Shown here: one piece after another, positions 21,948-43,526 of the stretch | Layout of the letters: each line of letters starts with the position of its first letter | Position numbering within the stretch: position 1 is the stretch's first letter | NCBI RefSeq assembly: GCF_001687105.1 | Contig: NZ_CP014595.1 | Coordinates: forward strand, 2,803,001-2,867,000 | Reading direction: 5' to 3' | From: Salipiger sp. CCB-MM3 | Lineage (GTDB): Bacteria; Pseudomonadota; Alphaproteobacteria; Rhodobacterales; Rhodobacteraceae | DNA: 64,000 nucleotides | The notes under the pieces: model-generated | The model's database searches: none | The model's input: the letters and a program-made list of their open reading frames with translations, nothing else | Told to the model about the DNA's origin: nothing | Made by a program: the position numbers and the translations under genes

Positions 21948-22050
21948 TGCGTATTTTCAAAGAGAAGAAGACCAAGGGGCGTCCGCTTCTTCTCTTTACA
22001 AATACGCCGGGGTGAATTGGCCGCAGGCCAAGAGGGGCAGCGCCCCTTTT
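21948..22050. repeat. Dispersed GCGTATTT...AGAAGAAG hairpin element, full copy
   Basis: The left arm (21949-21970) starts GCGTATTT and ends AGAGAAGAAG. After a 16-base loop the right arm (21987-22008) is its near-exact complement, ending AAATACGC. Then follow GGGG, a short inverted repeat TTGGCCGCAGGCCAA, and AGGGGCAGCGCCCC plus a T-run. It lies between the ABC-F gene and ndk (divergent) and takes up much of the 324-base gap there. The terminal hairpin with T-run could end transcription rightwards. Confidence 0.8.
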
Positions 22051-24973: not shown

Positions 24974-25086
24974 GGCGCGGCTCCGGACTGTGCTATGGGT
25001 GACTTTGTGCCAGAGCGTCCGGGGGGCGGCAAGAGCGTAGGGGGCGCGTTGGAGCGGGCGCTGCGGTGGTCTATTATTATCAATCA

Positions 25087-25101
25087 TTAACAGTGGTTTA
25101 G
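25087..25101 (+). promoter_or_regulatory. CtrA-like site upstream of GTA cluster
   Basis: TTAA-CAGTGGT-TTAG, one mismatch from the CtrA full site TTAA-N7-TTAA. It is 25 bases upstream of a promoter-like TTGACT and about 195 bases before GTA g1. In Rhodobacter capsulatus the GTA promoter is activated by GafA, itself under CtrA. Direct CtrA binding here is a hypothesis. Confidence 0.3.
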
Positions 25102-25125
25102 ATATGCTCCGTGCGGCCCGGTAAC

Positions 25126-25154
25126 TTGACTTGGCGTGCGCTGCCGCGTAGCTT
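25126..25154 (+). promoter_or_regulatory. Candidate promoter of GTA leader
   Basis: TTGACT, a 17-base spacer, then TAGCTT. The -35-like box is good and the -10 weak, but the position fits a short transcript ending at the terminator at 25215 or reading through into g1. Confidence 0.35.
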
Positions 25155-25161
25155 TTTAGAC

Positions 25162-25197
25162 ATGCTGGACGAATTGAGCAGGCGGCCCCGGGGGTGA
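25162..25197 (+). other. Possible 11-codon leader reading frame before GTA g1
   Basis: ATG...TGA encoding MLDELSRRPRG, its last codons lying inside the 5' arm of the terminator hairpin at 25182-25210. Such overlap is the layout of translational attenuators. No clear ribosome site is seen, so this is speculative. Confidence 0.25.
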
Positions 25198-25215
25198 TCC
25201 CGGTGGCCGTTTTTT
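25182..25215 (+). terminator. Rho-independent terminator in GTA leader
   Basis: A GC-rich stem from GGCCCCGGG to CCCGGTGGCC with loop GGTGAT, followed by TTTTTT (25210-25215). No plus-strand gene ends upstream, because the neighbour is on the minus strand. It must therefore end a short leader or small RNA starting after about 25100. A second hairpin (GGCCTGC/GCAGGCC, 25225-25254) with an A-rich loop follows before g1. Confidence 0.65.
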
Positions 25216-25294
25216 CGTTTGGCGGGCCTGCATCCAAAAAAACCAAAGCAGGCCGAGCAGAGGCACTTTCCACAGGCAAGAAAGGTATCGAGCC

Positions 25295-25636
25295 ATGGTT
25301 CTCATCCATCTCGACGAGGAACTGACCCGTCTCGAAGAAGAGCGGGAGATGATCGCCGACATGCTGCGGCATCTGGGCGCCGACATGCGGCGTCTGCGCG
25401 GGCAGTACGAGGAAAGCGGCACTTTGGACAAACCCGAGACCAGCAAGGCGGTGGCGGATCTGCGCTACTGGCTCAAGGTCGCTCATGAAACGGAGGCACT
25501 GATCACCAATGTCAGACGCAAGCAAAAGGGAATTGCAGGGGACTGGGCGCTCGATCTCGAGCGGGCCCGGCTTGAGGTCGGCTGCCGCATGGCTCGCCTC
25601 CGCCGGTGCTGCGGTGCAGGAGAGCTTTCTGACTGA
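25295..25636 (+). CDS. GTA small terminase-like protein (g1)
   Basis: A 113-residue acidic/basic helical protein. It begins 'MVLIHLDEELTRLEEEREMI' with heptad-like coil and ends in 'KGIAGDWALDLERARLEVGC', matching RcGTA gene 1. In the prototypical GTA this is the small terminase subunit, which lacks the specific DNA-recognition of phage TerS and so permits packaging of random host DNA. Its 3' end overlaps the likely start of g2. The ribosome site AAGAAAGG precedes the ATG. First structural gene of the cluster. Confidence 0.85.
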   Translation: MVLIHLDEELTRLEEEREMIADMLRHLGADMRRLRGQYEESGTLDKPETSKAVADLRYWLKVAHETEALITNVRRKQKGIAGDWALDLERARLEVGCRMARLRRCCGAGELSD

Positions 25637-26918
25637 GCTGACCGAGGGGGAGCGCCTTGCGCTCCCCTTTCTGTTCGAGTTCTGGGCCATGGAGCACCAG
25701 CTGCCGCCCGAGGGCGATTGGCGCTCTTGGGTGATCATGGGCGGGCGCGGGGCGGGCAAGACCCGTGCCGGGGCCGAATGGGTGCGCGCCATGGTCGAAG
25801 GGGCGCTGCCGCTCTCGCCGGGGCAGTGCAAACGCGTGGCGCTGGTGGGCGAGACGCTGGATCAGGCGCGTGAGGTGATGGTCTTTGGCGACAGCGGCAT
25901 CCTCGCCTGTTCTCCGCCCGACCGGCGCCCGGACTGGAGCGCCACGCGGCGTTGCCTGACGTGGCCCAATGGCGCCGAGGCGATGGTGTTTTCGGCGCAT
26001 GATCCCGAGGCTTTGCGCGGCCCGCAGTTCGATGCCGCATGGGCGGATGAATTGGCGAAATGGCGCAAGGCGCGCGATACATGGGACATGCTGCAATTCG
26101 CGCTGCGGCTCGGCACCCATCCGCGCGCCTGTGTGACCACCACGCCGCGCAATGTGGCGGTGCTCAAGGAGGTGCTCGACCTGCCGAGCACCGTGGTGAC
26201 CCGTGCGCCGACCGAAGCCAACCGCGCCAATCTTGCGGCGTCTTTCCTTGACGAGGTGCGGGCGCGTTATGGCGCGACGCGGCTGGCGCGGCAGGAGTTG
26301 GATGGCGAGATGGTCTCTGACGTGGATGGCACGCTTTGGACGCAGGACATGCTGGAGCGCGCGCGGCTGGCCGAGGTGCCGGGGTGCTTTGACCGGATCG
26401 TCGTGGCGGTGGATCCCCCAGCGGGCGACGGGCAGAGCGCGGACGCCTGCGGGATCGTGGTCTGCGGCGTGGTCAGCGACGGGCCGCCGCAGGTATGGCG
26501 GGCCTATGTGCTCGAGGATGCCTCGGTGCAGGGAATGGGGCCGACCGGCTGGGCGCAAGCGGCGGTCGAGGCGCTGGAGCGCTGGCAGGGGGACCGCATC
26601 GTCGCCGAGGTCAATCAGGGCGGCGCCATGGTCGAGGCAGTGCTGCGGCAGGTGGCGCCCAATGTGCCGCTGCGCAAGGTGACGGCGACCCGAGGCAAGG
26701 CGTCCCGCGCCGAGCCGGTGGCGGCGCTCTACGAGCAGGGGCGGATCGGGCACGCGCGGCGGTTCGAGGCGCTCGAAGAGCAGATGGGGCTGATGACGGT
26801 TGCGGGGTTTGCCGGGCAGGGCTCGCCGGACCGGGTGGATGCGCTGGTCTGGGCGCTGACCGAACTGGTGACCGGCCCGGCGGAAAGCTGGCGTCGGCCC
26901 CGGATGCGGCTTTTGTGA
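25572..26918 (+). CDS. GTA large terminase (g2)
   Basis: A phage-type packaging ATPase/nuclease. Walker A is 'IMGGRGAGKTRAGAEWV', the Walker B region is near 'FDAAWADELAKW', the motif III-like 'TTPRNVAVL' follows, and acidic nuclease residues lie in 'VVAVDPPAGDGQSADACGI'. It pumps DNA into the GTA capsid by headful packaging. The start is uncertain: TTG at 25572 (448 residues, GAGCGGG upstream) begins close to the usual 'AAAWLAS' N-terminus. ATG at 25509 would overlap g1 by 128 bases, and GTG at 25614 is a third option. A hairpin follows directly, and the portal gene is 4.3 kb away instead of adjacent. Confidence 0.93.
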   Translation: MRSAAAWLASAGAAVQESFLTELTEGERLALPFLFEFWAMEHQLPPEGDWRSWVIMGGRGAGKTRAGAEWVRAMVEGALPLSPGQCKRVALVGETLDQAREVMVFGDSGILACSPPDRRPDWSATRRCLTWPNGAEAMVFSAHDPEALRGPQFDAAWADELAKWRKARDTWDMLQFALRLGTHPRACVTTTPRNVAVLKEVLDLPSTVVTRAPTEANRANLAASFLDEVRARYGATRLARQELDGEMVSDVDGTLWTQDMLERARLAEVPGCFDRIVVAVDPPAGDGQSADACGIVVCGVVSDGPPQVWRAYVLEDASVQGMGPTGWAQAAVEALERWQGDRIVAEVNQGGAMVEAVLRQVAPNVPLRKVTATRGKASRAEPVAALYEQGRIGHARRFEALEEQMGLMTVAGFAGQGSPDRVDALVWALTELVTGPAESWRRPRMRLL

Positions 26919-26924
26919 CTTGCC

Positions 26925-26956
26925 GCAGGGTCATCGGCTTTGGTGGGTGACCCTGC
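26925..26956 (+). terminator. Hairpin directly after GTA g2
   Basis: A 9-bp perfect inverted repeat, GCAGGGTCA and TGACCCTGC, with a 14-base loop, six bases after the g2 stop and followed by AAAT. Lacking a T-run it may be a weak terminator or mRNA end. It would close a g1-g2 transcription unit separate from g3-g15. Confidence 0.45.
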
Positions 26957-27177
26957 AAATCCGGATTTCGACGCGATTTTCGCCGGTTGGCGGGCGTTTT
27001 CGATGCACGTTCCCGAGATTGCGGCGCTGCGGCGGACCCTCAGGCTTGCGCGGCGTCAATTTTCACGCAAGGCTCGCGCCGCGGTCTTTGCCACATTTTC
27101 GGCTGTCACGAGACCGTCAAGATAAGAACCTACACGCGCGTCACGGCCAATCGGGCCGGGTCCGGATACCGGGGAGA

Positions 27178-28287
27178 ATGATTGTGAAAGCAAATACAAA
27201 GATTTGGCTGGCTGGCGTCGCCGCGCTGATGGCCACGACGTCGATGGTACAGGCGCAAGACCTGTCCGAGCTTGAGGCGGCGGCGATCGAAGAAGGCATG
27301 CTGACCACCATCGCTCTGCCGCACAGCTGGTGCGGCTATGGCGACGTGATCGCGGGCTTCAAGGCCAAATACCCCGACATCGAGGTCAACGAGTTGAACC
27401 CCGACGCGGGCTCGGCGGATGAGCTGGAAGCCGTGCGCGCCAACAAGGGCAACACCGGCCCGCAGGCGCCCGACGTTCTGGACGTGGGCCTGTCGTTCGG
27501 CCCGCAGGCCAAGGAAGAAGGCCTGCTGCAGCCCTACAAGGTTTCGACTTGGGACGAGATCCCCGACGCGGTGAAGGATGAGGAAGGCTACTGGTACGGC
27601 GACTATTACGGCGTCATGTCGTTCATGGTGAACAAGGACCTGATCGACACCACGCCCGAGGATTGGTCGGACCTGCTGAAGCCCGAATATGCGGGCTCGG
27701 TGGCGCTGGCGGGCGATCCGCGCGCCTCGAACCAAGCGATCCTCGCGGTGCTCGCAGCGGGCATGGCCGAGGGCGGTGCCGCTGGCAAGGATGCCGGTGA
27801 GAAGGGCCTCGATTTCTTCAAGAAGATGAACGAGGCGGGCAACTTCGTGCCGGTCATCGGCAAGGCGGGCACGCTGGCGCAGGGCGCGACCCCGATCACC
27901 ATCATGTGGGACTATAACGCTCTGGCGGCCCGCGACACGCTGAACGGCAACCCGCCGGTCGATGTGGTGGTGCCGAAGTCGGGCGTTCTGGCCGGTGTTT
28001 ATGTGCAGGGCATCTCGGCCCACGCGCCGCACCCGAACGCCGCGAAACTGTGGATGGAGTATCTCTATTCCGACGAGGGCCAGAGCCTGTGGCTCAAGGG
28101 CTACTGCCACCCGGCGCGGTTCAACGCGATGGCCGCCGATGGCAAGATCTCGCAGGAACTGCTCGACGCGCTGCCGCCGGCGGAAAGCTATGAGGCCGCC
28201 TATTTCCCGTCGCTCGGCGAGCAGGCGGGCAACAAAGAAGCGGTCGTCGGTGGCTGGGATGCCGTCGTGGGCGCCAACGTCCAGTAA
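27178..28287 (+). CDS. ABC transporter periplasmic substrate-binding protein
   Basis: A 369-residue exported solute-binding protein of the family 1/polyamine-iron type. The signal peptide ends 'MVQAQD' near residue 26. Mature features include 'TIALPHSWCGYGDVIAGFKA', 'VLDVGLSFGPQAKEEGLLQP', 'WYGDYYGVMSFMVNKDLI', 'ITIMWDYNALAARD' and 'AKLWMEYLYSDEGQSLWLKG'. A GTG at 27184 has better spacing from GGGGAG than the ATG at 27178, so it may be the true start. It is the first gene of a complete importer operon sitting inside the GTA cluster. The substrate is unknown; spermidine/putrescine, ferric iron or phosphonate-type ligands are the usual ones for this class. Confidence 0.88.
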   Translation: MIVKANTKIWLAGVAALMATTSMVQAQDLSELEAAAIEEGMLTTIALPHSWCGYGDVIAGFKAKYPDIEVNELNPDAGSADELEAVRANKGNTGPQAPDVLDVGLSFGPQAKEEGLLQPYKVSTWDEIPDAVKDEEGYWYGDYYGVMSFMVNKDLIDTTPEDWSDLLKPEYAGSVALAGDPRASNQAILAVLAAGMAEGGAAGKDAGEKGLDFFKKMNEAGNFVPVIGKAGTLAQGATPITIMWDYNALAARDTLNGNPPVDVVVPKSGVLAGVYVQGISAHAPHPNAAKLWMEYLYSDEGQSLWLKGYCHPARFNAMAADGKISQELLDALPPAESYEAAYFPSLGEQAGNKEAVVGGWDAVVGANVQ

Positions 28288-28300
28288 GACCGAACTCTCG

Positions 28301-28330
28301 GGGGCCCACCGGATGTTCCGGGCGGGCCCC
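28301..28330 (+). other. Intercistronic hairpin after the binding-protein gene
   Basis: GGGGCCC and GGGCCCC arms with a further paired CCGG inside, between the binding-protein and permease genes. Such hairpins commonly protect the binding-protein mRNA and reduce permease expression. Confidence 0.5.
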
Positions 28331-28410
28331 TGTCCCGCCGGCGTGTGTCTGCAAGCAAAGGCACCGGGGCGGGAGTGGCGTTTTCCGTCCTGCCCTTATC
28401 CGGACCTTGT

Positions 28411-29292
28411 GTGACTGACCTGACATCCCCCCCGCCAAAGCGCCGCTGGCGTCCAAGCCTGACATGGCTGGGCCTCCTGCCCTTCGCGCTGTTCATCGCG
28501 CTGTTTCTGGTGATGCCGACGATGAAGATCGTCATCGGTGCCTTCCAGCGTGCCGACGGCTCTTTCACCTTCGAGAATATCGCCGGGCTGTTCACCGCGT
28601 CGATCCTGTCGTCCTATTGGATCTCGATCAAGATTTCCGTCGCCTCGTCGGCGATCGGCTGTCTCATCGGCTTTCTGATGGCGGCGGGCATGGTGCTGGG
28701 CGGGCTGCCGCGCGGCATCCGCTCGCCGCTGATGACCTTCTCTGGCGTCGCCTCGAACTTTGCAGGCGTGCCGCTGGCCTTCGCCTTTCTGGCGACGCTC
28801 GGCCCGCTGGGTCTGGTGACCATGTTCCTGCGCACCGAGTTCGGCATCAACCTGCGCGCCATGGGGTTCAACATCCTCAGCTTCTGGGGGCTGACGATCA
28901 CGTACCTCTTTTTCCAGATTCCGCTGATGATCCTGATCATCACCCCGGCGCTGGACGGGCTGAAGCGCGAATGGCGCGAGGCGGCGTCCTGCCTTGGGGC
29001 GAGCGGCGCGCAATATTGGCGCATCGTGGCGCTGCCGATCCTCTTTCCGACCATCCTCGGCACCTTCGCGCTGCTCTTTGCCAATGCCTTCGGTGCCGTG
29101 GCGACCGCCATCGCTTTGACAGGAAGCTCGCTCAACATCGTGCCGATCATGCTGTTCGCGCAAATTCGCGGTGACGTGCTGGGCAACCCGCATCTGGGCT
29201 ATGCCATGGCCTTTGGGATGATCCTCGTCACCGGGCTGGCCAACGTCATCTACATCTGGCTGCGCATCCGTTCCGAAAGGTGGCTGAAATGA
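28411..29292 (+). CDS. ABC transporter permease
   Basis: A 293-residue inner-membrane permease with about six transmembrane segments. It starts with a Pro/Arg-rich cytoplasmic tail then 'LGLLPFALFIALFLVMPTMK'. The EAA loop that contacts the ATPase is 'EWREAASCLGASGAQYWRIV' followed by LPILFPTILGTF. GTG at 28411 is the preferred start. An ATG at 28345 would add 22 residues through the intergenic hairpin region. The stop overlaps the next permease's ATG (ATGA). Confidence 0.9.
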   Translation: MTDLTSPPPKRRWRPSLTWLGLLPFALFIALFLVMPTMKIVIGAFQRADGSFTFENIAGLFTASILSSYWISIKISVASSAIGCLIGFLMAAGMVLGGLPRGIRSPLMTFSGVASNFAGVPLAFAFLATLGPLGLVTMFLRTEFGINLRAMGFNILSFWGLTITYLFFQIPLMILIITPALDGLKREWREAASCLGASGAQYWRIVALPILFPTILGTFALLFANAFGAVATAIALTGSSLNIVPIMLFAQIRGDVLGNPHLGYAMAFGMILVTGLANVIYIWLRIRSERWLK

Positions 29293-30067
29293 CCAAGGCT
29301 GCCTCTTGGGCCATCCTGCTTCTGGGCCTGACCTATTTCATCCTGCCGCTGGTCGGCATGGTCGAATTCTCGCTGTCCATGCGGCGGGGCGAATATAGTT
29401 TCGACGCCTATGCCGCGGTGCTGGCCGATCCGCAGTTCCGCGAGACCTTTTCCTATTCGGTGGTGATGGCGCTGCTGACCATCGTCTTTGGCATCCTGCT
29501 GGTGGTGCCCACCGCGTTTTGGGTGCGGCTGAAGCTGCCGCGTCTGCGCCCGCTGGTCGAGTTCGTTACCCTGCTGCCGCTGGTGATCCCGGCGATCGTC
29601 ACGGTGTTTGGCTATATCCGGCTTTACAACACCTCGAGCTGGCTGCCGCTGACCGGCACGACCTTTGGCACCAACCTGCTGCTGATGTTCGGCTACGCCA
29701 TGCTGTCGCTGCCCTATATGTACCGCGCGGTCGACACCGGGCTGCGCACCATCGACGTCGCCACGCTCACCGAAGCGGCGCAGAGCCTTGGCGCGGGGTG
29801 GTTCACCATCATCGCCAAACTGATCCTGCCCAATGTGCTGGTCGCGGTGCTGTCGGGATCTTTCGTGACATTCGCCATCGTCATGGGCGAGTTCACCATG
29901 GCGGCGCTGCTCAACCGTCCAGCCTTTGGCCCGTATCTGCAGCTGATGGGGGCCAACAAGGCCTATGAGCCCTTCGCGCTGGCCACCATCGCTTTCATCA
30001 TCACCTGGGCCTGCATGGGGCTGATCCAGCTGGTCACCAGATTTACCAAACACGACAAGGCGGGCCG

Positions 30068-30071
<4 letters not shown>
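29289..30071 (+). CDS. ABC transporter permease, second subunit
   Basis: A 260-residue PotC-type permease with about six transmembrane segments. The EAA loop is 'LTEAAQSLGAGWFTIIAKLI' followed by LPNVL. It begins at the ATGA overlap with the first permease and ends in an ATGA overlap with the ATPase gene, so the three are translationally coupled. With the partner permease it forms the heterodimeric channel. Confidence 0.92.
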
Positions 30072-31114
<1,043 letters not shown>

Positions 31115-31267
31115 CGCTTCACCTCACACATTGCACCTGCCTTAGAGGGTGTTGCCATGGCGGCGGGCGCTGCCTGCAAGCGTGGTTAACCAACGCTCTC
31201 TAGGGTTCTTCTCAACGCGCAACACGGCCGGGTGGCCGATGTTCCGGGGCGAAGCGAGGAGCGTGCA
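31115..31267 (+). promoter_or_regulatory. Junction between ABC importer and GTA portal gene
   Basis: A 153-base gap containing GTGGTTAACCAACGC (a TTAACC half-site resembling part of a CtrA box, around 31183-31197). No clear terminator is seen. A promoter driving g3-g15 would have to be here or further upstream in the importer operon. Confidence 0.3.
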
Positions 31268-32488
31268 ATGGTGTTCGAATTTCTGCGGCGGACGCGCGAG
31301 GGGGAAACTCTGCCCGAGGTGAAGGCCTCTGCCGTCGGGCCGCTTGTCGCGATGCAGGCGGTCGGGCGCGTGGCTTGGACGCCGCGTGACACCGGCTCGC
31401 TGACCCGGCAGGGGTTCTCTGGCAACCCCGTGGGCTTTCGCGCGGTGAAGCTGATTTCGGAGGCTGCCGCCGCGCTGCCGCTGGTGCTGCAGGACAGCGA
31501 GATGCGCTACAGCACCCACCCGATCCTGCGTTGCCTGAACGCGCCCAATCCCGCGCAGGGCCGTGCCGAGCTTTTCGAGGCGCTGTATGGCCAGCTGCTG
31601 CTGTCGGGGGATGGCTACGTCGAAGCGGTGGGCCAGGGACGCGGGCTGCCCGTGGAGTTGCATGTGCTGCGCTCGGAACGGATGCGGCTGGTGCCGGGGG
31701 CTGATGGCTGGCCCGTCGCCTATGAGTATCATGTGGACGGCAGGCGCCATCGCTTTGACGTGCAGGACACGCCCGCACCGATCTGCCATGTGAAGAACTT
31801 CCACCCGCAGGACGATCACTATGGCCTCTCGCCGCTGCAACCGGCGGCGCAGGCGGTGGATGTGCACAACAGCGCCTCGCGCTGGTCCAAGGGGCTGCTC
31901 GACAATGCGGCGCGGCCCTCGGGGGCGATTGTCTGGACCGGGGCCGACGGGCAGGGCACGCTTGCGCAGGACCAGTACGAGCGGCTGGTGGCGGAGATGG
32001 AGAGCAACCATCAGGGGGCGCGCAACGCCGGGCGGCCGATGCTGCTTGAAGGCGGGCTCGACTGGAAGCCCATGGGGTTCTCTCCCTCGGACATGGAGTT
32101 CCGCCAGACCAAGGAGGCCGCCGCGCGCGAGATCGCCATCGCCTTTGGCGTGCCGCCGATGCTGCTGGGCATCCCAGGTGATGCGACCTACGCCAATTAC
32201 CAAGAGGCCAACCGCGCCTTCTACCGGCTGACCGTGCTGCCACTGGCGCAGCGGGTGAGCGCCGCGCTGGGCAGATGGCTGGCGGGTTTCACCGGCGAGG
32301 AGGTGGAGCTGAAGCCAGACCTCGATCAGGTGCCAGCCCTGTCGGCAGAACGCGAGACCCATTGGCGCCGCGTCTCCGAGGCGGCCTTCCTCACCGTGCC
32401 GGAAAAACGCCGGATGCTGGGGCTGCCGCCGCTCACCGAGGATGGCGACCGACCGGGGGGGAATATGGGGGAAGAACCCGGTGCGTGA
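31268..32488 (+). CDS. GTA portal protein (g3)
   Basis: A 406-residue HK97-type portal. Family text: 'GFSGNPVGFRAVKLISEAAA', 'HPILRCLNAPNPAQGRAELF', 'HVKNFHPQDDHYGLSPLQPA', and 'EIAIAFGVPPMLLGIPGDAT'. The dodecameric portal forms the vertex through which DNA is packaged. The ATG at 31268 is preceded by GCGAGGAG. The C-terminus overlaps g3.5 by eight bases. Normally g3 follows g2 closely; here an ABC importer separates them. Confidence 0.93.
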   Translation: MVFEFLRRTREGETLPEVKASAVGPLVAMQAVGRVAWTPRDTGSLTRQGFSGNPVGFRAVKLISEAAAALPLVLQDSEMRYSTHPILRCLNAPNPAQGRAELFEALYGQLLLSGDGYVEAVGQGRGLPVELHVLRSERMRLVPGADGWPVAYEYHVDGRRHRFDVQDTPAPICHVKNFHPQDDHYGLSPLQPAAQAVDVHNSASRWSKGLLDNAARPSGAIVWTGADGQGTLAQDQYERLVAEMESNHQGARNAGRPMLLEGGLDWKPMGFSPSDMEFRQTKEAAAREIAIAFGVPPMLLGIPGDATYANYQEANRAFYRLTVLPLAQRVSAALGRWLAGFTGEEVELKPDLDQVPALSAERETHWRRVSEAAFLTVPEKRRMLGLPPLTEDGDRPGGNMGEEPGA

Positions 32489-32708
32489 GCGCGATCTGCC
32501 CTATGAGCCCTTCGCCTGCGCCCCGGCGCTGAAACTCGATGCCCACGAGCGGCTGCACAAGCTGCAGATCGACGCTTTGGAGGGACGGCTCGCCCGGCTC
32601 GAACTGGTGCTGGAGCGGCTCGAGAAGCGCCTGTGGCTGGCGGTCTACGGGGTGGCCGCGGGTCTGCTGGCGCAGGCGCTGCAGGGACTGGTCACCATGG
32701 CGCCCTGA
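32481..32708 (+). CDS. GTA head formation protein (g3.5)
   Basis: A 75-residue small protein of the rcc01685-type family found between portal and protease in RcGTA clusters. It starts at GTG 32481 (GTGCGTGA junction overlapping the g3 stop, with GGGGAAG upstream). A helical stretch 'HERLHKLQIDALEGRLARLE' is followed by one hydrophobic segment ('LWLAVYGVAAGLLAQALQGL'). An ATG at 32442 would give a 47-base overlap with g3. Exact role in head assembly is not defined. Confidence 0.8.
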   Translation: MRERDLPYEPFACAPALKLDAHERLHKLQIDALEGRLARLELVLERLEKRLWLAVYGVAAGLLAQALQGLVTMAP

Positions 32709-32735
32709 GGGGCGGAACACGAAGGGATGCAAGCG

Positions 32736-33290
32736 ATGCAACTGGAGCACAAGTTCTGCCGGCTGGGCACAGAGATTACCGCGCAGGTCACCGAGGCCGA
32801 AGGGACGCGGATCGAAGGTTACGCCTCGCTCTTCGGCGCGCCGGATCAGGGGGGCGATATCGTGGCACCCGGTGCCTATGCCGCCTCGTTGAAGCGGCTG
32901 GCAGACGAGGGGCGCGCGGTGCGTATGCTCTGGCAGCACGACCCGGGCCAGCCCATCGGCATCTGGGACGAGGTGCGCGAGGACGCGCGCGGCCTGCACG
33001 TGAAGGGACGGCTGCTGGAGAGCGTCGAGAAGGGACGTGAGGCGGCGGCGCTCATCGCTGCGGGGGCCATCGACGGGCTGTCGATCGGCTATCGCACCGT
33101 CACGGCGGTGAAAGAGCACGGGGGGCGCAGGCTCATCAAGGAACTGGAGCTTTGGGAGGTGTCGCTTGTCACCTTTCCGATGCTGCCCAGTGCGCGGGTG
33201 GCGGCCAAGGGAGAGCACCCCGAGGCAGACATGATGCGTGATCTGGCGCTGGCCATCGACGCCGCGCGCCTCGACCTGGCGCGCCGCTGA
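32736..33290 (+). CDS. GTA prohead protease (g4)
   Basis: A 184-residue HK97-family (U35) protease that trims capsid subunits during head maturation. Conserved blocks: 'IEGYASLFGAPDQGGDIVAP', the His in 'VRMLWQHDPGQPIGIWDEV', and the Ser-containing 'GAIDGLSIGYRT' with 'ELELWEVSLVTFPM'. AAGGG lies nine bases before the ATG at 32736; an ATG at 32727 would add three residues. Confidence 0.92.
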   Translation: MQLEHKFCRLGTEITAQVTEAEGTRIEGYASLFGAPDQGGDIVAPGAYAASLKRLADEGRAVRMLWQHDPGQPIGIWDEVREDARGLHVKGRLLESVEKGREAAALIAAGAIDGLSIGYRTVTAVKEHGGRRLIKELELWEVSLVTFPMLPSARVAAKGEHPEADMMRDLALAIDAARLDLARR

Positions 33291-33318
33291 CGCGCGCCCT
33301 CAACAGGGGACAGAGTTG

Positions 33319-34503
33319 ATGAAGACAACCGAGAGCCATTCTCGGGCCGGGGAAGATCTGTCCCCGGTCGCCCGTGTGGGCGCCGCCATGGCGGGGCTCA
33401 CGGCGGACATCAGGGCCATGCAGGCCGACATTCACGCGAAACTGGACAAACACGAAGAGCGACTGACCATGCTGGATACCAAGACCTCTCATGCCGCGGC
33501 GCGCCCGGCGCTGGCCACCACCGCCGAGCTGGAGCTGCCGCACCGCAAGGCGTTCAACGCCTATCTGCGCACCGGCGACGACGACGGGCTGCGCGGGCTG
33601 GTGCTGGAGGGCAAGGCGCTCTCGACCGCCGTCGCGGCGGATGGCGGCTATCTCGTCGATCCGGTCACCTCCGAGACCGTCCGCGGCGTGCTGGAAGGCG
33701 CGGCCTCGATCCGTGCCATCGCCGCCGTGGTGAGCGTCGAGGCGGGCTCCTTCGACGTGCTGGTCGATCAGGGCGACACTGGCGCGGGCTGGGCGAACGA
33801 GCTTTCGGACAGTACCGAGAGCGAGACGCCGACCATCGACCGCATCCAGATCAAGCTGCACGAGCTCTCGGCCATGCCCAAGGCCTCGCAGCGTCTGCTG
33901 GACGACGCGGCCTTCGATCTGGAGGCTTGGCTCGCCGGGCGCATCGCCGACAAGTTCTCGCGCGCCGAGGCGGCGGCTTTCGTGGCGGGTGACGGCATCG
34001 ACAAGCCCATGGGCATCCTGTCGCACAGCATGGTCGACAATGAGATCTGGGAGTGGGGCAATCTGGGCTATGTGCCCTCGGAGGTGGCCGCGGGGATCGG
34101 CGATGGCGACAAGATCATCGACCTGGTCTACGCGCTGGGCGCCGAGTACCGCGCAAAGGCGAGCTTCGTGATGAACTCCAAGACCGCCGGTGCTCTGCGC
34201 AAGCTCAAGGATGCGGACGGGCGGCACCTGTGGAGCGACGGGCTCTCGGCAGGGCAACCGGCGCGGCTGCTGGGCTACCCGGTGCTGATCGCCGAGGACA
34301 TGCCCGACATCGCCGCCGATACCTATCCCATCGCTTTTGGCGACTTCGCTGCCGGTTACACGATCGCCGAACGCCCCGATCTGCGGGTGCTGCGCGATCC
34401 GTTCAGCGCCAAGCCGCATGTGCTGTTCTACGCCACCAAGCGCGTCGGCGGCGACGTGAGCGATTTCGCCGCGATCAAGCTGCTGCGCTGCGCCACCAGC
34501 TGA
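33319..34503 (+). CDS. GTA major capsid protein (g5)
   Basis: A 394-residue HK97-fold capsid protein. The N-terminal ~100 residues are a charged scaffold-like delta domain ('MQADIHAKLDKHEERLTMLD') probably removed by g4. The mature core starts near 'LPHRKAFNAYLRTGDD' and includes 'AADGGYLVDPVTSETVRGVL', 'MPKASQRLLDDAAFDLEAWL' and 'FGDFAAGYTIAERPDLRVLR'. GGGGACA precedes the ATG at 33319. Sequence is full length for an RcGTA capsid, consistent with a working particle. Confidence 0.95.
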   Translation: MKTTESHSRAGEDLSPVARVGAAMAGLTADIRAMQADIHAKLDKHEERLTMLDTKTSHAAARPALATTAELELPHRKAFNAYLRTGDDDGLRGLVLEGKALSTAVAADGGYLVDPVTSETVRGVLEGAASIRAIAAVVSVEAGSFDVLVDQGDTGAGWANELSDSTESETPTIDRIQIKLHELSAMPKASQRLLDDAAFDLEAWLAGRIADKFSRAEAAAFVAGDGIDKPMGILSHSMVDNEIWEWGNLGYVPSEVAAGIGDGDKIIDLVYALGAEYRAKASFVMNSKTAGALRKLKDADGRHLWSDGLSAGQPARLLGYPVLIAEDMPDIAADTYPIAFGDFAAGYTIAERPDLRVLRDPFSAKPHVLFYATKRVGGDVSDFAAIKLLRCATS

Positions 34504-34570
34504 GCGTGAGGGGCCATGGCGGCGAGGTGTCGCCATAGCCGCCAGCGGCACGAACCGGAGAAGGCTGATG

Positions 34571-35161
34571 ATGGTGATCGAAGAGACGCAGGTGGCGGAC
34601 GAGCTGCTGCCGGTTGAGGCGCTGACGGCGCAGCTGCGCATGGGCAGCGGCTTTGACGAGGCGGACCTGCAGGAGCCGGTGCTGCGGGCCTTTCTGCGCG
34701 CGGCACTGGCGGCGATCGAGGCCCGGACCGGCAAGGCGCTGCTGATCCGCAGCTTCCTCTGGACGCTGCACGGCTGGCGCGACCCCGAGGGCGCGGTGCT
34801 CCCGCTGGCGCCGGTGCAGAGCGTCACCGAACTGGCGCTGATCGACCGCAACGGCGCGGCGCAGGTGATCGCGCCCGAGCGCTACCGGCTGGAGGTGGAC
34901 AGCATCGCCCCGCGGCTGCGCCCGCAGGGGGCCACGCTTCCGAGCATCCCCGAGGGCGGCGCGGCGGAGCTGCGCTTCAGCGCGGGATTTGCCGCCAGTT
35001 TCGACGCGCTGCCGCCCGATCTGGCGCAGGCGGTGCTGCTGCTCGCGGCGCATTACTACGAATATCGCGACGAGACCGCGCTGAGCCAGGGTTGCATGCC
35101 CTTTGGGGTAACATCGCTGATCGCCCGCTACCGCCCGCTGCGCATGGGATTCACCTCATGA
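34571..35161 (+). CDS. GTA head-tail connector (g6)
   Basis: A 196-residue adaptor of the gp6-like head-tail connector family. It starts 'MVIEETQVADELLPVEALTA' (an adjacent ATG at 34568 adds one Met). Conserved features: 'LRAALAAIEARTGKALLIRS', 'PVQSVTELALIDRNG', and 'LAQAVLLLAAHYYEYRDET' near the C-terminus. Forms the ring below the portal. The stop overlaps the g7 start (ATGA). Confidence 0.88.
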   Translation: MVIEETQVADELLPVEALTAQLRMGSGFDEADLQEPVLRAFLRAALAAIEARTGKALLIRSFLWTLHGWRDPEGAVLPLAPVQSVTELALIDRNGAAQVIAPERYRLEVDSIAPRLRPQGATLPSIPEGGAAELRFSAGFAASFDALPPDLAQAVLLLAAHYYEYRDETALSQGCMPFGVTSLIARYRPLRMGFTS

Positions 35162-35496
35162 GGGCGGTGCGTCTTTCACAGCGGCTGGTGCTCGAGGCCC
35201 CGGCACGCACGCCCGACGGGATGGGCGGTTTCACCGAGGGCTGGCAGGCGCTCGGCACGCTCTGGGCTGAACTGCAGCCGCGCAGCGGGCGCGAGGTGCA
35301 GGGCGAGGCCGGGCCGGTGGCGCGGGGCCGCTTCCGCATCACCGTGCGCGCGGCCCCCGAGGGATCCTCGAGCCGCCCGGCACCGGGCCAGCGCTTTCGG
35401 CGCGGCAGCCGCATCTTCGACATTCAGGCGGTGACCGAGTGCGACGGCTCGGGCCTCTACCTGCAATGCGAAGCGCAGGAGGAGGTGGCGTCATGA
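35158..35496 (+). CDS. GTA head-tail joining/adaptor protein (g7)
   Basis: A 112-residue beta-rich phage SPP1-type head-tail stopper. 'LSQRLVLEAPARTPDGMGGF' followed by 'WQALGTLWAELQPRSGREVQ' and 'FRITVRAAPE' is typical. The ATGA overlap with g6 fixes the start and the ATGA overlap with g8 fixes the end. Confidence 0.88.
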   Translation: MRAVRLSQRLVLEAPARTPDGMGGFTEGWQALGTLWAELQPRSGREVQGEAGPVARGRFRITVRAAPEGSSSRPAPGQRFRRGSRIFDIQAVTECDGSGLYLQCEAQEEVAS

Positions 35497-35900
35497 GCTA
35501 TGCGATGTCCGGCGCGTTGCAGGCGGCGGTCTTCGCCGCGCTGCAGGGCGATGCCACGCTGGCCGAGCTGGTCGGCAGCAACATCTACGACGCGCTGCCC
35601 GCCGGAAACCTGCCGCCGCTCTACGTCACGCTCGGCGCGGAAGAGGCGCGCGACGCCTCGGATGTGGGCAGCCGCGGCGCTTGGCACGATCTCACCGTTG
35701 CCGTGGTGACTGAGGCGGCGGGCTTTGCGGCGGCCAAGACGGTGGCGGCGGCGGTCTCGGACGCGCTGCATGAGGCGGACCTGGCGCTGAGCCGCGGACG
35801 GTTGATCAGCCTGCGCTTTCGCCGTGCCCGCGCCCGCCGCGAGACCGGCGGTCTGCGCCGCATCGAAATGACATTCCGCGCGCGGCTTGAAGACGACTGA
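35493..35900 (+). CDS. GTA tail terminator (DUF3168, g8)
   Basis: A 135-residue DUF3168 protein, the phage tail-completion/terminator fold. 'MSGALQAAVFAALQGDATLA', 'IYDALPAGNLPPLYVTLG' and 'RRIEMTFRARLEDD' are the characteristic blocks. It caps the tail tube at its head-proximal end. The start overlaps the g7 stop. Confidence 0.88.
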   Translation: MSYAMSGALQAAVFAALQGDATLAELVGSNIYDALPAGNLPPLYVTLGAEEARDASDVGSRGAWHDLTVAVVTEAAGFAAAKTVAAAVSDALHEADLALSRGRLISLRFRRARARRETGGLRRIEMTFRARLEDD

Positions 35901-35926
35901 ACGCGCCAAATCAAGGAGTTGCGACA

Positions 35927-36349
35927 ATGGCTGCCCAGAACGGCAAGGACCTTCTGATCAAGCTCGACCTGACCGGCGACGGCCAGTTCGAGACCATGGC
36001 GGGGCTGCGCGCCACGCGGGTGAGTTTCAACGCCGAGAGCGTCGATGTGACCTCTCTGGAAAGCGCCGGAGGCTGGCGCGAACTGCTCGCCGGGGCCGGG
36101 GTAAAATCGGCCAATCTCTCGGGCTCGGGCGTGTTCAAGGACGCGGGCACCGACGAGCGCGCGCGGCAGATCTTCTTTGACGGAGAGACGCCGGATTTTC
36201 AGGTGATCATCCCCGATTTCGGCACCGTGGAGGGGCCGTTTCAACTCACCTCGATCGACTATGCCGGCAGCCACGACGGCGAGGCGACCTATGAGATCGC
36301 GCTCGCCTCGGCGGGGGCGCTGAGTTTCGTGCCGGCGGTGGAGGCCTAA
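35927..36349 (+). CDS. GTA major tail tube protein (g9)
   Basis: A 140-residue tail tube subunit: 'MAAQNGKDLLIKLDLTGDGQ', 'ESVDVTSLESAGGWRELLAG' and 'FELTSIDYAG'-like text (here 'PFQLTSIDYAGSHDGEATYE'). AAGGAG lies eight bases before the ATG. Hexameric rings stack to form the tube through which DNA leaves. Confidence 0.92.
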   Translation: MAAQNGKDLLIKLDLTGDGQFETMAGLRATRVSFNAESVDVTSLESAGGWRELLAGAGVKSANLSGSGVFKDAGTDERARQIFFDGETPDFQVIIPDFGTVEGPFQLTSIDYAGSHDGEATYEIALASAGALSFVPAVEA

Positions 36350-36673
36350 ATGTCGAACCCGTGGCGCGGAGAGGTGGCGCTGGAGATCGACGGCCAGCGC
36401 CATGTGATGCGGCTGACGCTGGGCGCGTTGGCCGAACTGGAGGCGATGCTGGAGGACGGCACGCTGCTTGATCTGGTGCGCCGTTTCGAAAGCGGCAGCT
36501 GTTCGACCCGCGACGTGCTCGCGCTGATCGTCGCGGGGCTGCGCGGGGGCGGCTGGCCGGGCACGGCGCAGGACCTCGTAAGCGCCGAGATCGGCGGCGG
36601 CCCGCTGCTGGCCGCGCGCGCGGCGGCGGAGCTGCTGGCGCATGCTTTCGCGCTGCCCGGAGAGACCGGATGA
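36350..36673 (+). CDS. GTA tail assembly protein (g10)
   Basis: A 107-residue protein of the GTA family tail-chaperone type (gene 10). 'WRGEVALEIDGQRHVMRLTL' then 'LGALAELEAMLEDGTLLDLV' are conserved. It starts on the base after the g9 stop and overlaps g10.1 by an ATGA. By position equivalent to the phage gpG-like tail assembly chaperone. Confidence 0.86.
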   Translation: MSNPWRGEVALEIDGQRHVMRLTLGALAELEAMLEDGTLLDLVRRFESGSCSTRDVLALIVAGLRGGGWPGTAQDLVSAEIGGGPLLAARAAAELLAHAFALPGETG

Positions 36674-36873
36674 GCGGCTTTGACTGGGCGGCGCTTTTGC
36701 GTGCGGCGGTCGAGCGGCTGGGGCTGCGCCCGGCGGAGTTCTGGGCGCTGACCCCCGCCGAACTGCGGCTGATGCTGGGGGGCGGCGGCGGGTCGCGCGC
36801 GATGGGCCGCGCCCGGCTGGAGGAATTGATCGCGGCCTTTCCGGACGCGGTGCAGGGAGATGGCGATGACTGA
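36670..36873 (+). CDS. GTA tail assembly chaperone (g10.1)
   Basis: A 67-residue protein, 'FDWAALLRAAVERLGLRPAE' followed by 'FWALTPAELRLMLGG', the small GTA/phage tail chaperone (rcc01693-like). It overlaps g10 at its start and g11 at its end. Small size makes it easy to miss, but the motif is distinctive. Confidence 0.85.
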   Translation: MSGFDWAALLRAAVERLGLRPAEFWALTPAELRLMLGGGGGSRAMGRARLEELIAAFPDAVQGDGDD

Positions 36874-37519
36874 GATGGATGATCTTGACCGGGCCCTCGA
36901 GGGGCTGGAGCAGAGCCTTGGCGGGGCCAGCACCATGGCGGCGGGGTTCGATGCGGAACTGAAGCGCATCCACCAGACGTTTTCCGCCACCGGGCGCGGC
37001 GCGTCAAAGCTCGAAGGCACGCTCAGCCGCTCGCTGGCACGGGCGTTTGATGGCGTGGTGTTCGGCGGCCGCAGCGCCTCCGAGGCGCTCGAGCAGGTGG
37101 CGCGCAGCGTGCGTGACAGTGCCTACCGCGCCGCGGTGCGCCCGGTGACCGACCATCTGGGCGGCGCTCTGGCCGCCGGGGTGACGCAGCTTTTCGGGGC
37201 GTTTTCGCCCTTTGCGCAGGGCGGCGCCTTCTCGCAGGGGCGGGTCACGCCCTTTGCCAGCGGCGGCGTCGTCAGCGGGCCGGTGCGCTTTCCCATGCGC
37301 GGCGGCACGGGCCTGATGGGCGAGGCGGGGCCCGAGGCGATCCTGCCGCTGTCGCGCGGTGCCGACGGGCGTCTTGGCGTGCGCGCCGAGGGACGCAGCC
37401 AGCCGGTCACCGTGGTGATGAACATCCAGACCCCCGACGTGCAGGGCTTTCAGCGCAGCCGCGCGCAGATCGCCGCGCAGATAAGCCGTGCGCTGTCGCA
37501 GGGCGCGCGCAACCGCTGA
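36866..37519 (+). CDS. GTA tape measure protein (g11)
   Basis: A 217-residue tail tape measure protein, much shorter than phage homologues, in line with the short GTA tail. 'LDRALEGLEQSLGGASTMAA' (helical) is followed by 'SLARAFDGVVFGGRSASEAL'. A Gly-rich tail follows with 'FAQGGAFSQGRVTPFASGGV' and 'GLMGEAGPEAILPLSRGADG', the classic C-terminal tape-measure signature. AGGGAG precedes the ATG at 36866; the ATG at 36860 overlaps that ribosome site and is less likely. Confidence 0.88.
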   Translation: MTEMDDLDRALEGLEQSLGGASTMAAGFDAELKRIHQTFSATGRGASKLEGTLSRSLARAFDGVVFGGRSASEALEQVARSVRDSAYRAAVRPVTDHLGGALAAGVTQLFGAFSPFAQGGAFSQGRVTPFASGGVVSGPVRFPMRGGTGLMGEAGPEAILPLSRGADGRLGVRAEGRSQPVTVVMNIQTPDVQGFQRSRAQIAAQISRALSQGARNR

Positions 37520-37529
37520 AGGAGCGATC

Positions 37530-38162
37530 ATGAGCTTTCACGAGATACGCTTTCCCGCCGACCTCAGCTTTGGCGCCATGGGCGGGCCAGAGCGCCGCAC
37601 CGATGTGGTCGAACTGAGCTCGGGCTTCGAAGAGCGCAACACCCCTTGGGCACAGTCGCGGCGGCGCTTCGATGCCGGGCTGGGGCTGCGCTCGCTGGAT
37701 CATATCGCGCAACTGCTGGCGTTCTTCGAGGCGCGGCGGGGGCAGCTTTATGGGTTTCGCTGGAAGGATTGGTCGGATTACGCCTCTTGCCTGCCATCGC
37801 AGAGCGTCTCTGCCGGGGATCAGGTGATCGCCCGCGGCGACGGCGCGACCCGCAGCTTCCAGCTCACCAAAACCTACCGCTCGGGCACGGCCACCTATGC
37901 GCGCGCCATCACCAAGCCGGTGGCCGGAACGGTGCTGGCGGCGGTGCAGGATGTTGCGATGCATGAGGGCGTACATTTCGAGGTAGACACCACCAGCGGC
38001 CTCGTCACCTTCGCCGAGCCGCCGCTGGCCGGGGCCGAGGTCAGCGCGGGCTTTGAGTTCGACGTGCCAGTGCGCTTCGACACCGACCGGATCAACGTCT
38101 CGGTCGCGAGCTTTCAGGCCGGACAGGTGCCCGATGTGCCGGTGGTCGAGGTGCGGGTCTGA
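37530..38162 (+). CDS. GTA distal tail protein (DUF2460, g12)
   Basis: A 210-residue DUF2460/TIGR02217 protein: 'FHEIRFPADLSFGAMGGPER', 'VELSSGFEERNTPWAQSRRR', 'LYGFRWKDWSDY' and 'VPVRFDTDRINVSVASFQAG'. Forms the ring joining tube to baseplate hub. The stop overlaps the g13 start by one base. AAGGAG is seven bases before the ATG. Confidence 0.92.
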   Translation: MSFHEIRFPADLSFGAMGGPERRTDVVELSSGFEERNTPWAQSRRRFDAGLGLRSLDHIAQLLAFFEARRGQLYGFRWKDWSDYASCLPSQSVSAGDQVIARGDGATRSFQLTKTYRSGTATYARAITKPVAGTVLAAVQDVAMHEGVHFEVDTTSGLVTFAEPPLAGAEVSAGFEFDVPVRFDTDRINVSVASFQAGQVPDVPVVEVRV

Positions 38163-39043
38163 TGGGCGCTGCAGAGCTTCACGCGCATCTGGCGGGCGGG
38201 CTGACCACCGTGGTGCGTTGCTGGGCGTTGACCCGGCGCGATGGTCTGCGCCTTGGCTTTACCGACCACGACCGCGCGCTGAGCTTCGACGGGCTGGAGT
38301 TCCGCGCCGACAGCGGGCTCAGCGCCAAGGCAGTGCAGCAGGCGACCGGGCTTTCGGTGGACAATTCCGAGGCGATGGGCGCGCTGTCGGATGCATCGCT
38401 CTCGGAGGCAGATATTGAGGCCGGGCGCTTTGATGATGCCGAGCTTGTCGCTTGGCTGGTCAACTGGGCCGACGTCAGCCAGCGCCGCATCCTGTTTCGC
38501 GGCACGCTGGGACAAATCCGGCGCGGCCCTTCGGCCTTTCATGCGGAACTGCGCGGGCTGACCGAGCGGCTGAACCGTCCCTTAGGGCGGGTCTACCACA
38601 AATCCTGCGCCGCGGTTCTGGGCGATGCGGCGTGCAAGTTCGATCTCAAGACTGCCGGTTATCTTGCTGAAACTGATATCATTTCAGTGGATGGATCGCA
38701 GAGCCTTTCGGTTGCGCTTCTGCCGGGGTTCGAGCTTGGCTGGTTCAGCCGTGGGCGGCTCGAGATGCTGAGCGGCGCCGCTGCGGGGCTGTCCGGAGGG
38801 ATCAAGCGTGACCGCCATATCGACGGGCTGCGGGTCATCGACCTGTGGGAGCCGCTGCGCGCGCCGCTTGCGCCGGGAGATCGCGTTCGGCTCACCGCGG
38901 GCTGCGACAAGATGTTCGAAAGCTGCCAGTTTAAATTCAACAACATCATAAACTTCCAAGGGTTTCCTGACGTGCCGGAAGAGGATTGGATGCTGACCCA
39001 TGCCAGCAGCGCATCGGTCACCGACGGCGGGTCGAGACGATGA
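38162..39043 (+). CDS. GTA baseplate hub protein (DUF2163/phage BR0599 family, g13)
   Basis: A 293-residue protein with an N-terminal DUF2163 region ('AELHAHLAGGLTTVVRCWAL', 'LGFTDHDRALSFDGLEFRAD') and a C-terminal phage BR0599-type region. Four cysteines in 'SCAAVLGDAACKFD' and 'AGCDKMFESC' are spaced as in hub proteins reported to hold an iron-sulfur cluster in RcGTA; that is recalled knowledge, with the cysteines seen directly. Overlaps g14 by ATGA. Confidence 0.9.
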   Translation: MGAAELHAHLAGGLTTVVRCWALTRRDGLRLGFTDHDRALSFDGLEFRADSGLSAKAVQQATGLSVDNSEAMGALSDASLSEADIEAGRFDDAELVAWLVNWADVSQRRILFRGTLGQIRRGPSAFHAELRGLTERLNRPLGRVYHKSCAAVLGDAACKFDLKTAGYLAETDIISVDGSQSLSVALLPGFELGWFSRGRLEMLSGAAAGLSGGIKRDRHIDGLRVIDLWEPLRAPLAPGDRVRLTAGCDKMFESCQFKFNNIINFQGFPDVPEEDWMLTHASSASVTDGGSRR

Positions 39044-39480
39044 GCCGCGCGCACGCAGTGGCGGTGGCCCGCAGCTGGATCGGCACGCCTTATCTGCATC
39101 AGGGATCGCGGCGCGGCGCGGGCTGCGACTGCCTCGGGCTGCTGCGCGGCGTCTGGCGCGAACTGCTGGGGCCAGAGCCCGAGCCGGTGCCGCGCTACAG
39201 CATGGACTGGTCGGAGCCGCAGGGCGAAGAGGCGCTGCTGCAGGCCGCCCTGCGCCACCTGCGCCCGAAAACCTTGGGCGATGAGTCCCCGGGCGATGTG
39301 CTTCTGTTCCGCATGCGCGCGGGCAGCGTCGCCAAGCATCTGGGGCTGCAGGCGCGCACTGGGGTCGATGCGTCCTTCATCCATGCCTACAGCGGCCATG
39401 GGGTGATCGAAAGCGCCCTCAGCGCCCCGTGGCGGCGGCGCATCGCGGCACGTTTTGCCCTTCCGATGGAGAACGACTGA
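39040..39480 (+). CDS. GTA NlpC/P60 family cell-wall peptidase (g14)
   Basis: A 146-residue NlpC/P60 endopeptidase. The catalytic Cys is in 'GAGCDCLGLLRGVW' (about residue 31), and the His is near 'SVAKHLGLQA'. It starts 'MSRAHAVAVARSWIGTPYLH'. It is thought to cut peptidoglycan during DNA entry into recipients. Overlaps g13 at its start and shares one base with g15. Confidence 0.92.
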   Translation: MSRAHAVAVARSWIGTPYLHQGSRRGAGCDCLGLLRGVWRELLGPEPEPVPRYSMDWSEPQGEEALLQAALRHLRPKTLGDESPGDVLLFRMRAGSVAKHLGLQARTGVDASFIHAYSGHGVIESALSAPWRRRIAARFALPMEND

Positions 39481-43391: not shown

Positions 43392-43526
43392 GACCTGAGA
43401 GTGAGACCCGCGGCGCAGGGCAATCGGCGCTTTCATCTCCGCCCGCGATCCCCTAGATCACGGTTTTGCATTTCGGCGCGCCGCGCCTATCTGCTAGACT
43501 GCTGGGCAACCGCACGGAGGATTCCA

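Follow-up and report, generated by a model that had tools for sequence, protein, structure and literature searches.

The gene transfer agent (GTA) of Rhodobacter capsulatus, RcGTA, is encoded by a head-tail cluster whose genes run in the order g1-g15. A cluster of this type lies in the 64,000-nucleotide stretch of Salipiger sp. CCB-MM3 analyzed here (the window; positions 2,803,001-2,867,000 of contig C1, which is at least 2.87 Mb long, in a genome of 5.52 Mb and seven contigs). It resembles RcGTA in gene order, gene families and strand, in a promoter-like element before g1 and in a serine acetyltransferase gene after g15. It differs from RcGTA in carrying a 4.1-kb ATP-binding cassette (ABC) importer operon between g2 and g3, the genes for the large terminase and the portal protein. 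Moreover, the window has a conserved promoter-like element before g3 and a leader hairpin before g1, either of which may also occur in R. capsulatus itself. In the Caulobacter crescentus system (CcGTA; GafYZ, terGTA), a terminator early in the cluster likewise stands in the way of transcription, and GafZ lets RNA polymerase pass it (available part of PMC11150451). The terminator follows the first gene in Caulobacter, where anti-termination has been demonstrated, whereas the hairpin of the window precedes g1 and anti-termination is proposed from the DNA. The importer, in turn, resembles PhnSTUV, PhnSTU2 and PotD importers in its SBP_bac_6-type binding protein, two permeases and TOBE ATPase, but all its NCBIfam scores fall below the curated cut-offs, a Pho box lies upstream of it, and it is located in a GTA cluster. 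The accessible parts of the literature, including PMC9836097, PMC6821227, PMC10883770 and PMC6209664, contain no report of an importer between g2 and g3, which is not proof of its absence in print.

Four open importer genes on the plus strand, the strand of the GTA genes, occupy the space between the stop of g2 (26918) and the ATG of g3 (31268):

25509..26918, + strand: g2, large terminase (start at 25509 or 25572; Terminase_6N 7.7e-27, Terminase_6C 7.2e-20)
26975..27043, + strand: zone that holds the left boundary of the insert (weaker similarity upstream of 27043/27044, judged by eye)
27103..27120, + strand: Pho box CTGTCACGAGACCGTCAA (11 of 14 consensus positions)
27184..28287, + strand: importer binding protein (GTG start at 27184; SBP_bac_6 2.1e-36)
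28411..29292, + strand: importer permease 1 (GTG start at 28411 assumed; the frame opens at 28345, and BPD_transp_1 matches the frame from there, 5.7e-07)
29280..30071, + strand: importer permease 2 (BPD_transp_1 1.1e-06)
30068..31114, + strand: importer ATPase (ABC_tran 2.2e-38, TOBE_2 1.4e-14)
31151..31219, + strand: g3 promoter-like element by sequence pattern (GTTGC 31151-31155, TTAAC 31186-31190, TAGGGT 31201-31206, TCAACGCG 31212-31219)
31268..32488, + strand: g3, HK97-type portal (Phage_portal 4.8e-91; TIGR01537 above cut-off)

Start and stop codons of g2, the binding protein, both permeases, the ATPase and the portal gene are in place, and all six frames are open on the plus strand. 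The binding protein, two permeases and ATPase constitute an intact one-strand ABC importer operon. The terminase gene and its successors through g15 follow the RcGTA order on one strand, but the g2-g3 junction is not continuous, at ~4.3 kb against a family median of 130 bp. The original prediction, that a complete same-strand importer splits g1-g2 from g3-g15, thus holds in gene places, strand and open frames. It had placed the importer at 27178-31114; the end is correct, and the start moves to the GTG at 27184. It had also named an assembly error joining separate contigs at 26.9 or 31.1 kb as a way in which the arrangement could prove spurious. Misassembly is unlikely because the importer is single-copy in the genome, with further DNA matches confined to the ATPase part, and because both junctions are nowhere near a contig end. 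With an analogous arrangement in two other assemblies, we regard such an artefact as very improbable.

The insertion is real and lineage-specific. Both g2 and g3 were detected in all 20 genomes of the genus, this one included, and the gap between the matches spans ~4.3 kb in this genome. It is 178-765 bp in each of the other 19, none of which could accommodate the importer there. It measures 237-284 bp in the six close relatives. G002 has a g2 split over two frames, and G009 a truncated g3. Twelve of the 20 genomes have gaps of 713-765 bp; both such gaps tested with Pfam contain a GNAT acetyltransferase gene on the opposite strand (L069:2973-3638 and L070:3026-3505, minus). A wider search covered 149 genomes of the family and found g2 in 122 and g3 in 116 at the cut-offs applied. 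Both genes lie on one contig and strand in 109 genomes, this one among them, and apart in six; seven have g2 only and one g3 only. In the 109 clusters, the gap has a median of 130 bp; it is at most 300 bp in 100, 301-1000 bp in six and above 1 kb in three, namely 1.5 kb in G069, 4.3 kb in this genome and 5.85 kb in G050. The short gaps in genus and family rule out an ancestral arrangement, the other way in which the predicted interruption could have been explained away.

The 4.3-kb length is out of the ordinary; the site itself is not, which refines the original prediction. A survey of 13 head-tail junctions covered 100 of the 109 family clusters (this genome, two cases at contig ends and six more were left out), with 91-100 loci scored per junction. 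Gaps above 700 bp occur at g2-g3 in five of 100 loci (one of them G006, a member of the genus), at g3-g4 in one of 99 and at g8-g9 in one of 94; the other ten junctions have none. Hence, g2-g3 is the only head-tail junction at which such gaps recur. The 2-kb gap at g8-g9 (L269:8434-10416, minus) contains a frame of 660 amino acids with no Pfam match.

Furthermore, a second genus carries an importer at the same junction. The 5.85-kb insert of G050 comprises an opposite-strand gene of LuxR type, an importer of the polyamine type resembling PotABCD, and a gene for an SDR dehydrogenase. It is present in two of the five genomes of that genus, G050 and G168, which are ~95% identical over 10 kb, and absent from G167, G169 and G170, whose g2-g3 gaps are 127-128 bp. 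Read side by side, the sequences place this insert between the g2 stop and the GTTGC that opens the g3 element, with the element kept; in the insert-free relatives these two points are 7 bp (G169) or 12 bp (G167 and G170) apart. In the window the g3 element begins 36 bp past the ATPase stop. In both cases, by sequence, the importer insertion follows the g2 stop and precedes the g3 promoter-like element, and G050/G168 is a second independent case at g2-g3. The two share an importer on the GTA strand with terminase and portal genes intact. They differ in importer subfamily, in the extra LuxR and SDR genes and length of the G050/G168 insert, and in the Pho box: the best score on the GTA strand of G050 is 10/14, and this site is not before the importer.

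The g3 element was surveyed in 120 loci with g2 and g3. The g2 stop gave the orientation of 93 of these, and the sequence before g3 is 90 bp or longer in 82. Among genus members, all 20 such upstream regions contain GTTGC, and 19 of the 20 contain the pattern TTAA-N8-15-TA[GA] (4.6 and 0.1 in shuffles; G006 counted twice). Outside the genus the counts fall to 21 and seven of 62 (shuffles 8.8 and 1.0). The TTAA pattern is missing from the control gaps g5-g6 (0/78) and g10-g11 (0/87), where GTTGC alone is near chance; it also occurs upstream of g1, in three of 21 genus loci and 18 of 74 others. When GTTGC has to be followed by TC[AG]A[CA], a stricter requirement, three of four non-genus loci with gaps above 700 bp match, as do six of 95 others (Fisher p 0.002, indicative only, since the pattern was written post hoc and the loci are related); with the gap cut at 150 bp the association is not significant (p 0.18). 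De novo motif search upstream of g3 returned weak motifs only, which are given no weight here. The TTAAC of the element resembles a CtrA half-site. Putative CtrA half-sites have been noted in promoters of late RcGTA genes (PMC9638019, available part).

Upstream of g1, two further features bear on transcription of the cluster:

25126..25154, + strand: g1 promoter-like element TTGACT-17 bp-TAGCTT (sequence pattern)
25181..25215, + strand: leader hairpin with T run, located past the g1 promoter-like element and before g1 (own hairpin rule, fold)

TTGAC precedes g1 in 18 of the 21 loci from the genus, with one genome represented twice, against 3.8 in shuffles, and in 59 of the 74 from the rest of the family, against 11.2. 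A hairpin with T run is present in 46 of 95 g1 upstream regions (11 of 21 in the genus, with G006 counted twice, and 35 of 74 elsewhere; shuffles 0.6 and 1.9), in none of the g5-g6 (78) and g10-g11 (87) gaps and in seven of 82 regions upstream of g3. The standard terminator scan did not list the hairpin of the window, apparently owing to a bulge. This distribution suggests that GTAs of the family are under anti-termination control. Neither the terminator scan nor the hairpin rule found a terminator-like site between the importer and g3.

The importer has a regulatory signature of its own. The Pho box consensus consists of two CTGTCAT-like direct repeats with a 4-nt spacer (accessible part of PMC3131613), and the site upstream of the importer agrees with it at 11 of 14 positions, which is the sequence mark of a Pho regulon member. 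It is the sole site of at least 11/14 on either strand of the window; GTA regions of the family hold 77 such sites per 3.26 million strand-bases. All six orthologous importer copies of the genus score 11 or 12. Among 88 importer upstream regions (three genomes represented twice), 38 reach 11/14, as do 0.17% of shuffles. The importer is therefore probably switched on by phosphate starvation, and its substrate may be phosphorus-related. The importer type given by the original prediction stands, and its "nutrient importer" narrows to a Pho-box-linked importer. The scores do not reach those required for the 2-aminoethylphosphonate importers PhnSTUV or PhnSTU2, with 49.6-64.1 bits for the binding protein against NCBIfam cut-offs of 310-395 and 428.9 bits for the ATPase against the PhnT2 cut-off of 457.7. 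The nearest solved chain to the binding protein by sequence is 5t1p. Of 77 importer loci, 44-46, including those of a Sinirhodobacter and of many Rhizobiaceae, have within 10 kb what we take to be an RpiR regulator, an N-formylglutamate amidohydrolase, a glutamine synthetase-like protein and an aldehyde dehydrogenase. This set was not found in the Salipiger and Alloyangia importer loci or the window, and therefore no substrate was taken from it.

On balance, we lean towards the reading that a Pho-type importer was inserted where transcription of the GTA cluster has a natural seam. In this reading g3-g15 retain a promoter of their own, an anti-terminated transcript or both, and may have come under phosphate control. 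A self-contained operon of ~4.1 kb with its own PhoB-type promoter would have been inserted between the g2 stop and the g3 element, and g3-g15 would retain a promoter-like element of their own. A transcript from the g1 promoter would have to pass the leader hairpin first and is probably anti-terminated, as for GafZ in Caulobacter; it could then also run through the importer. The site might thus be tolerated because it is such a seam, with its own g3 element and an anti-terminated transcript, and extra genes at g2-g3 because that transcript would pass them. Under phosphate limitation, transcription of the importer may additionally continue into g3-g15, since no terminator-like site separates the ATPase from g3. 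The proposal that g1-g2 and g3-g15 are separate transcription units, or that g3-g15 are co-expressed with the importer, was left as two options, and both fit the DNA. We regard the regulatory consequence for g3-g15 as a sound hypothesis and not as a result.

Several observations weigh against this reading. Fifty of the 88 importer upstream regions score below 11/14, the diverged copies of G003 and G017 among them. A generic scan for sigma-70 promoters across 24950-33400 came back empty and missed even the g1 element. The g3 element was defined after viewing the sequences and is clear within the genus; its strict pattern occurs in nine of 99 non-genus loci, and therefore the g3 promoter is not general. 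The leader hairpin was found in fewer than half of the loci. Lastly, the ratio of nonsynonymous to synonymous substitution rates (dN/dS) is largely a record of evolution that preceded the insertion, and pairs that include this genome give somewhat higher values for g3 and g4-g12 than pairs that do not.

This ratio also bears on the question whether the insertion broke the GTA, with g3-g15 no longer co-expressed with g1-g2 and the cluster decaying. The set comprised g2, g3 and g4-g12, with g7 and g13-g15 left out. Between this genome and four relatives, dN/dS is 0.10-0.15 for g2, 0.12-0.18 for g3 and 0.16-0.24 for g4-g12; the corresponding values of four insert-free pairs are 0.12-0.14, 0.10-0.12 and 0.14-0.20. 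Genes from g3 onwards are somewhat less constrained in the pairs with this genome and far from neutral. The raised values would fit decay, as would the 4.3 kb between packaging motor and portal and the fate of G009, which has lost the part of the cluster between a point in g3 (window 31762) and one in g15 (window 41805; L068 near 3630-3650), so that GTA loss does occur in the genus. However, the frames are open on both sides of the importer, as the original prediction had stated, dN/dS is far below 1, and g2 is equal in both groups of pairs. Moreover, G050 and G168 have terminases 96% and portals 98% identical without internal stops, with a 5.85-kb insert. We thus consider a broken GTA unlikely, and the cluster of this strain may continue to function.

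The history of the importer is that of an operon found at changing places. Its binding protein is 95-96% identical in Alloyangia mangrovi (G007), Salipiger mangrovisoli (G008), G012 and G018, and 90% in G009. S. aestuarii (G003) and G017 have a relative of 75-76% identity, and the other 12 genus members have matches of at most 38%. When the four importer proteins of 81 loci and the window are concatenated (three loci without all four genes were dropped), the resulting tree groups the window with G007, G008, G012 and G018 (support 1.0), plus G009 (0.88), and the G003/G017 importer forms a separate lineage. In these two genomes the diverged importer of the same type lies ~20 kb downstream of g3 (L086:11228-15236, L087:13248-17249).

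The six orthologous copies sit at five addresses, compared with at least ~4 kb of flank per side, and only G008 and G018 share one. Similarity between copies begins at 27043/27044 and stops at or just before the ATPase stop codon. The G008/G018 address adjoins mscL; between its flanks, G011 has ~435 bp and G012 217 bp, with no importer. This genome, G007 and G009 also contain the flanking sequences, partly rearranged, and likewise have no importer between them. At the G012 address, the two flanks are on different contigs in G007, G008, G013 and G018, and only one flank was found in this genome. Vertical descent, combined with relocation and loss, is compatible with the trees of both importer and GTA genes. 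Exchange of the importer between species may also have occurred, because its synonymous divergence (0.38 in the pair with G008 and 0.24 for G008-G018) is lower than that of the GTA genes (0.65 for g2 and 0.42, respectively) and the GTA trees place G018 weakly.

No vehicle was recognized. Carriage by a transposon, insertion sequence or island was rejected on the long frames of the insert: all four are importer genes, and none encodes a transposase or integrase (shorter frames were not scanned). By eye, no terminal repeats or target-site duplication are seen at the junctions, where the gap has diverged between relatives. Among ten neighbor genes tested around five importer copies, one is part of a transposase, ~3.3 kb from the A. 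mangrovi copy. The 467-bp transposase-bearing stretch from that locus has at least 18 near-full-length copies (94-96%) on contigs C1-C5 and C7 of genome G000. A repeat CGTATTT..AAAGAGAAG, similar to repetitive extragenic palindromic sequences, occupies part of the g2-g3 gap in four of the six close relatives by the pattern applied, but does not flank the importer in the window. It is found at 21950-22006, 50044 and 63982 of the window and in the g2-g3 gaps of L062-L065, with inverted-repeat pairs in L062-L064.

This mobility raises the alternative that the importer is a neutral passenger in a tolerant gap, transcribed independently and leaving GTA regulation unchanged. Five addresses in six genomes with no shared flanks except in G008/G018 are what a passenger would show, the remaining g2-g3 fillers are unrelated to the importer (the opposite-strand GNAT gene; frames without Pfam match), and the intact g3 element fits as well. 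Against it, the lack of a terminator-like site before g3 leaves no insulation visible in the DNA, and importers have arrived at the g2-g3 seam twice, both in GTA orientation. We take the passenger to be possible, but less probable than the importer at a transcription seam.

The remainder of the cluster is laid out as follows:

25295..25636, + strand: g1, putative small terminase position (frame and order; no Pfam or NCBIfam match)
32442..32708, + strand: g3.5, GTA head formation protein (open frame, true start probably later; NF048001 5.6e-28, above cut-off)
32727..33290, + strand: g4, prohead protease (Peptidase_S78 2.1e-31)
33238..34503, + strand: g5, capsid (open frame, true start probably later; Phage_capsid 1.5e-85)
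34568..39480, + strand: g6-g14, connector, tail and hub genes (Pfam matches; g11 frame 36860-37519 without match)
39477..43391, + strand: g15, 1304 amino acids (GTA_TIM 2.9e-152, Phage-tail_3, Rcc01698_C)

The products of g3.5, g4-g10 and g12-g15 match RcGTA-type families on one strand, with a weak match for g6 (24 bits; cut-off 21.2), and the g1 and g11 frames, open and without a Pfam family, are assigned from position alone. Directly after g15 lies a serine acetyltransferase gene (43401-44345). Loss of cysE1, a possible ortholog of this gene, impairs GTA transfer in R. capsulatus (available part of PMC9552610).

A bolder extension of the preferred reading would make the g2-g3 seam of roseobacters a point of regulatory capture. 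Importers with nutrient-responsive promoters, placed before the g3 element, would hand the structural genes to a starvation signal (here phosphate via PhoB), uncoupling capsid from packaging and tying gene transfer to the imported nutrient; bolder still, the ~4.1-kb importer operon might itself travel as GTA-sized cargo. We find this extension doubtful. If, in the simpler case, the Pho-box importer runs into the capsid genes, phosphate limitation would be linked directly to GTA production. In R. capsulatus, a medium rich in phosphate has served to inhibit lysis during GTA production (PMC6363796, accessible part). Transcription of g3-g15 apart from g1-g2, if it is possible, would call for a revision of the single-transcript view of the GTA in these bacteria. 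The arrangement suggests where GTA operons can be broken, at a seam where genes have been taken up repeatedly in the family, and the two importer insertions may serve as natural experiments on where a GTA cluster may be cut.

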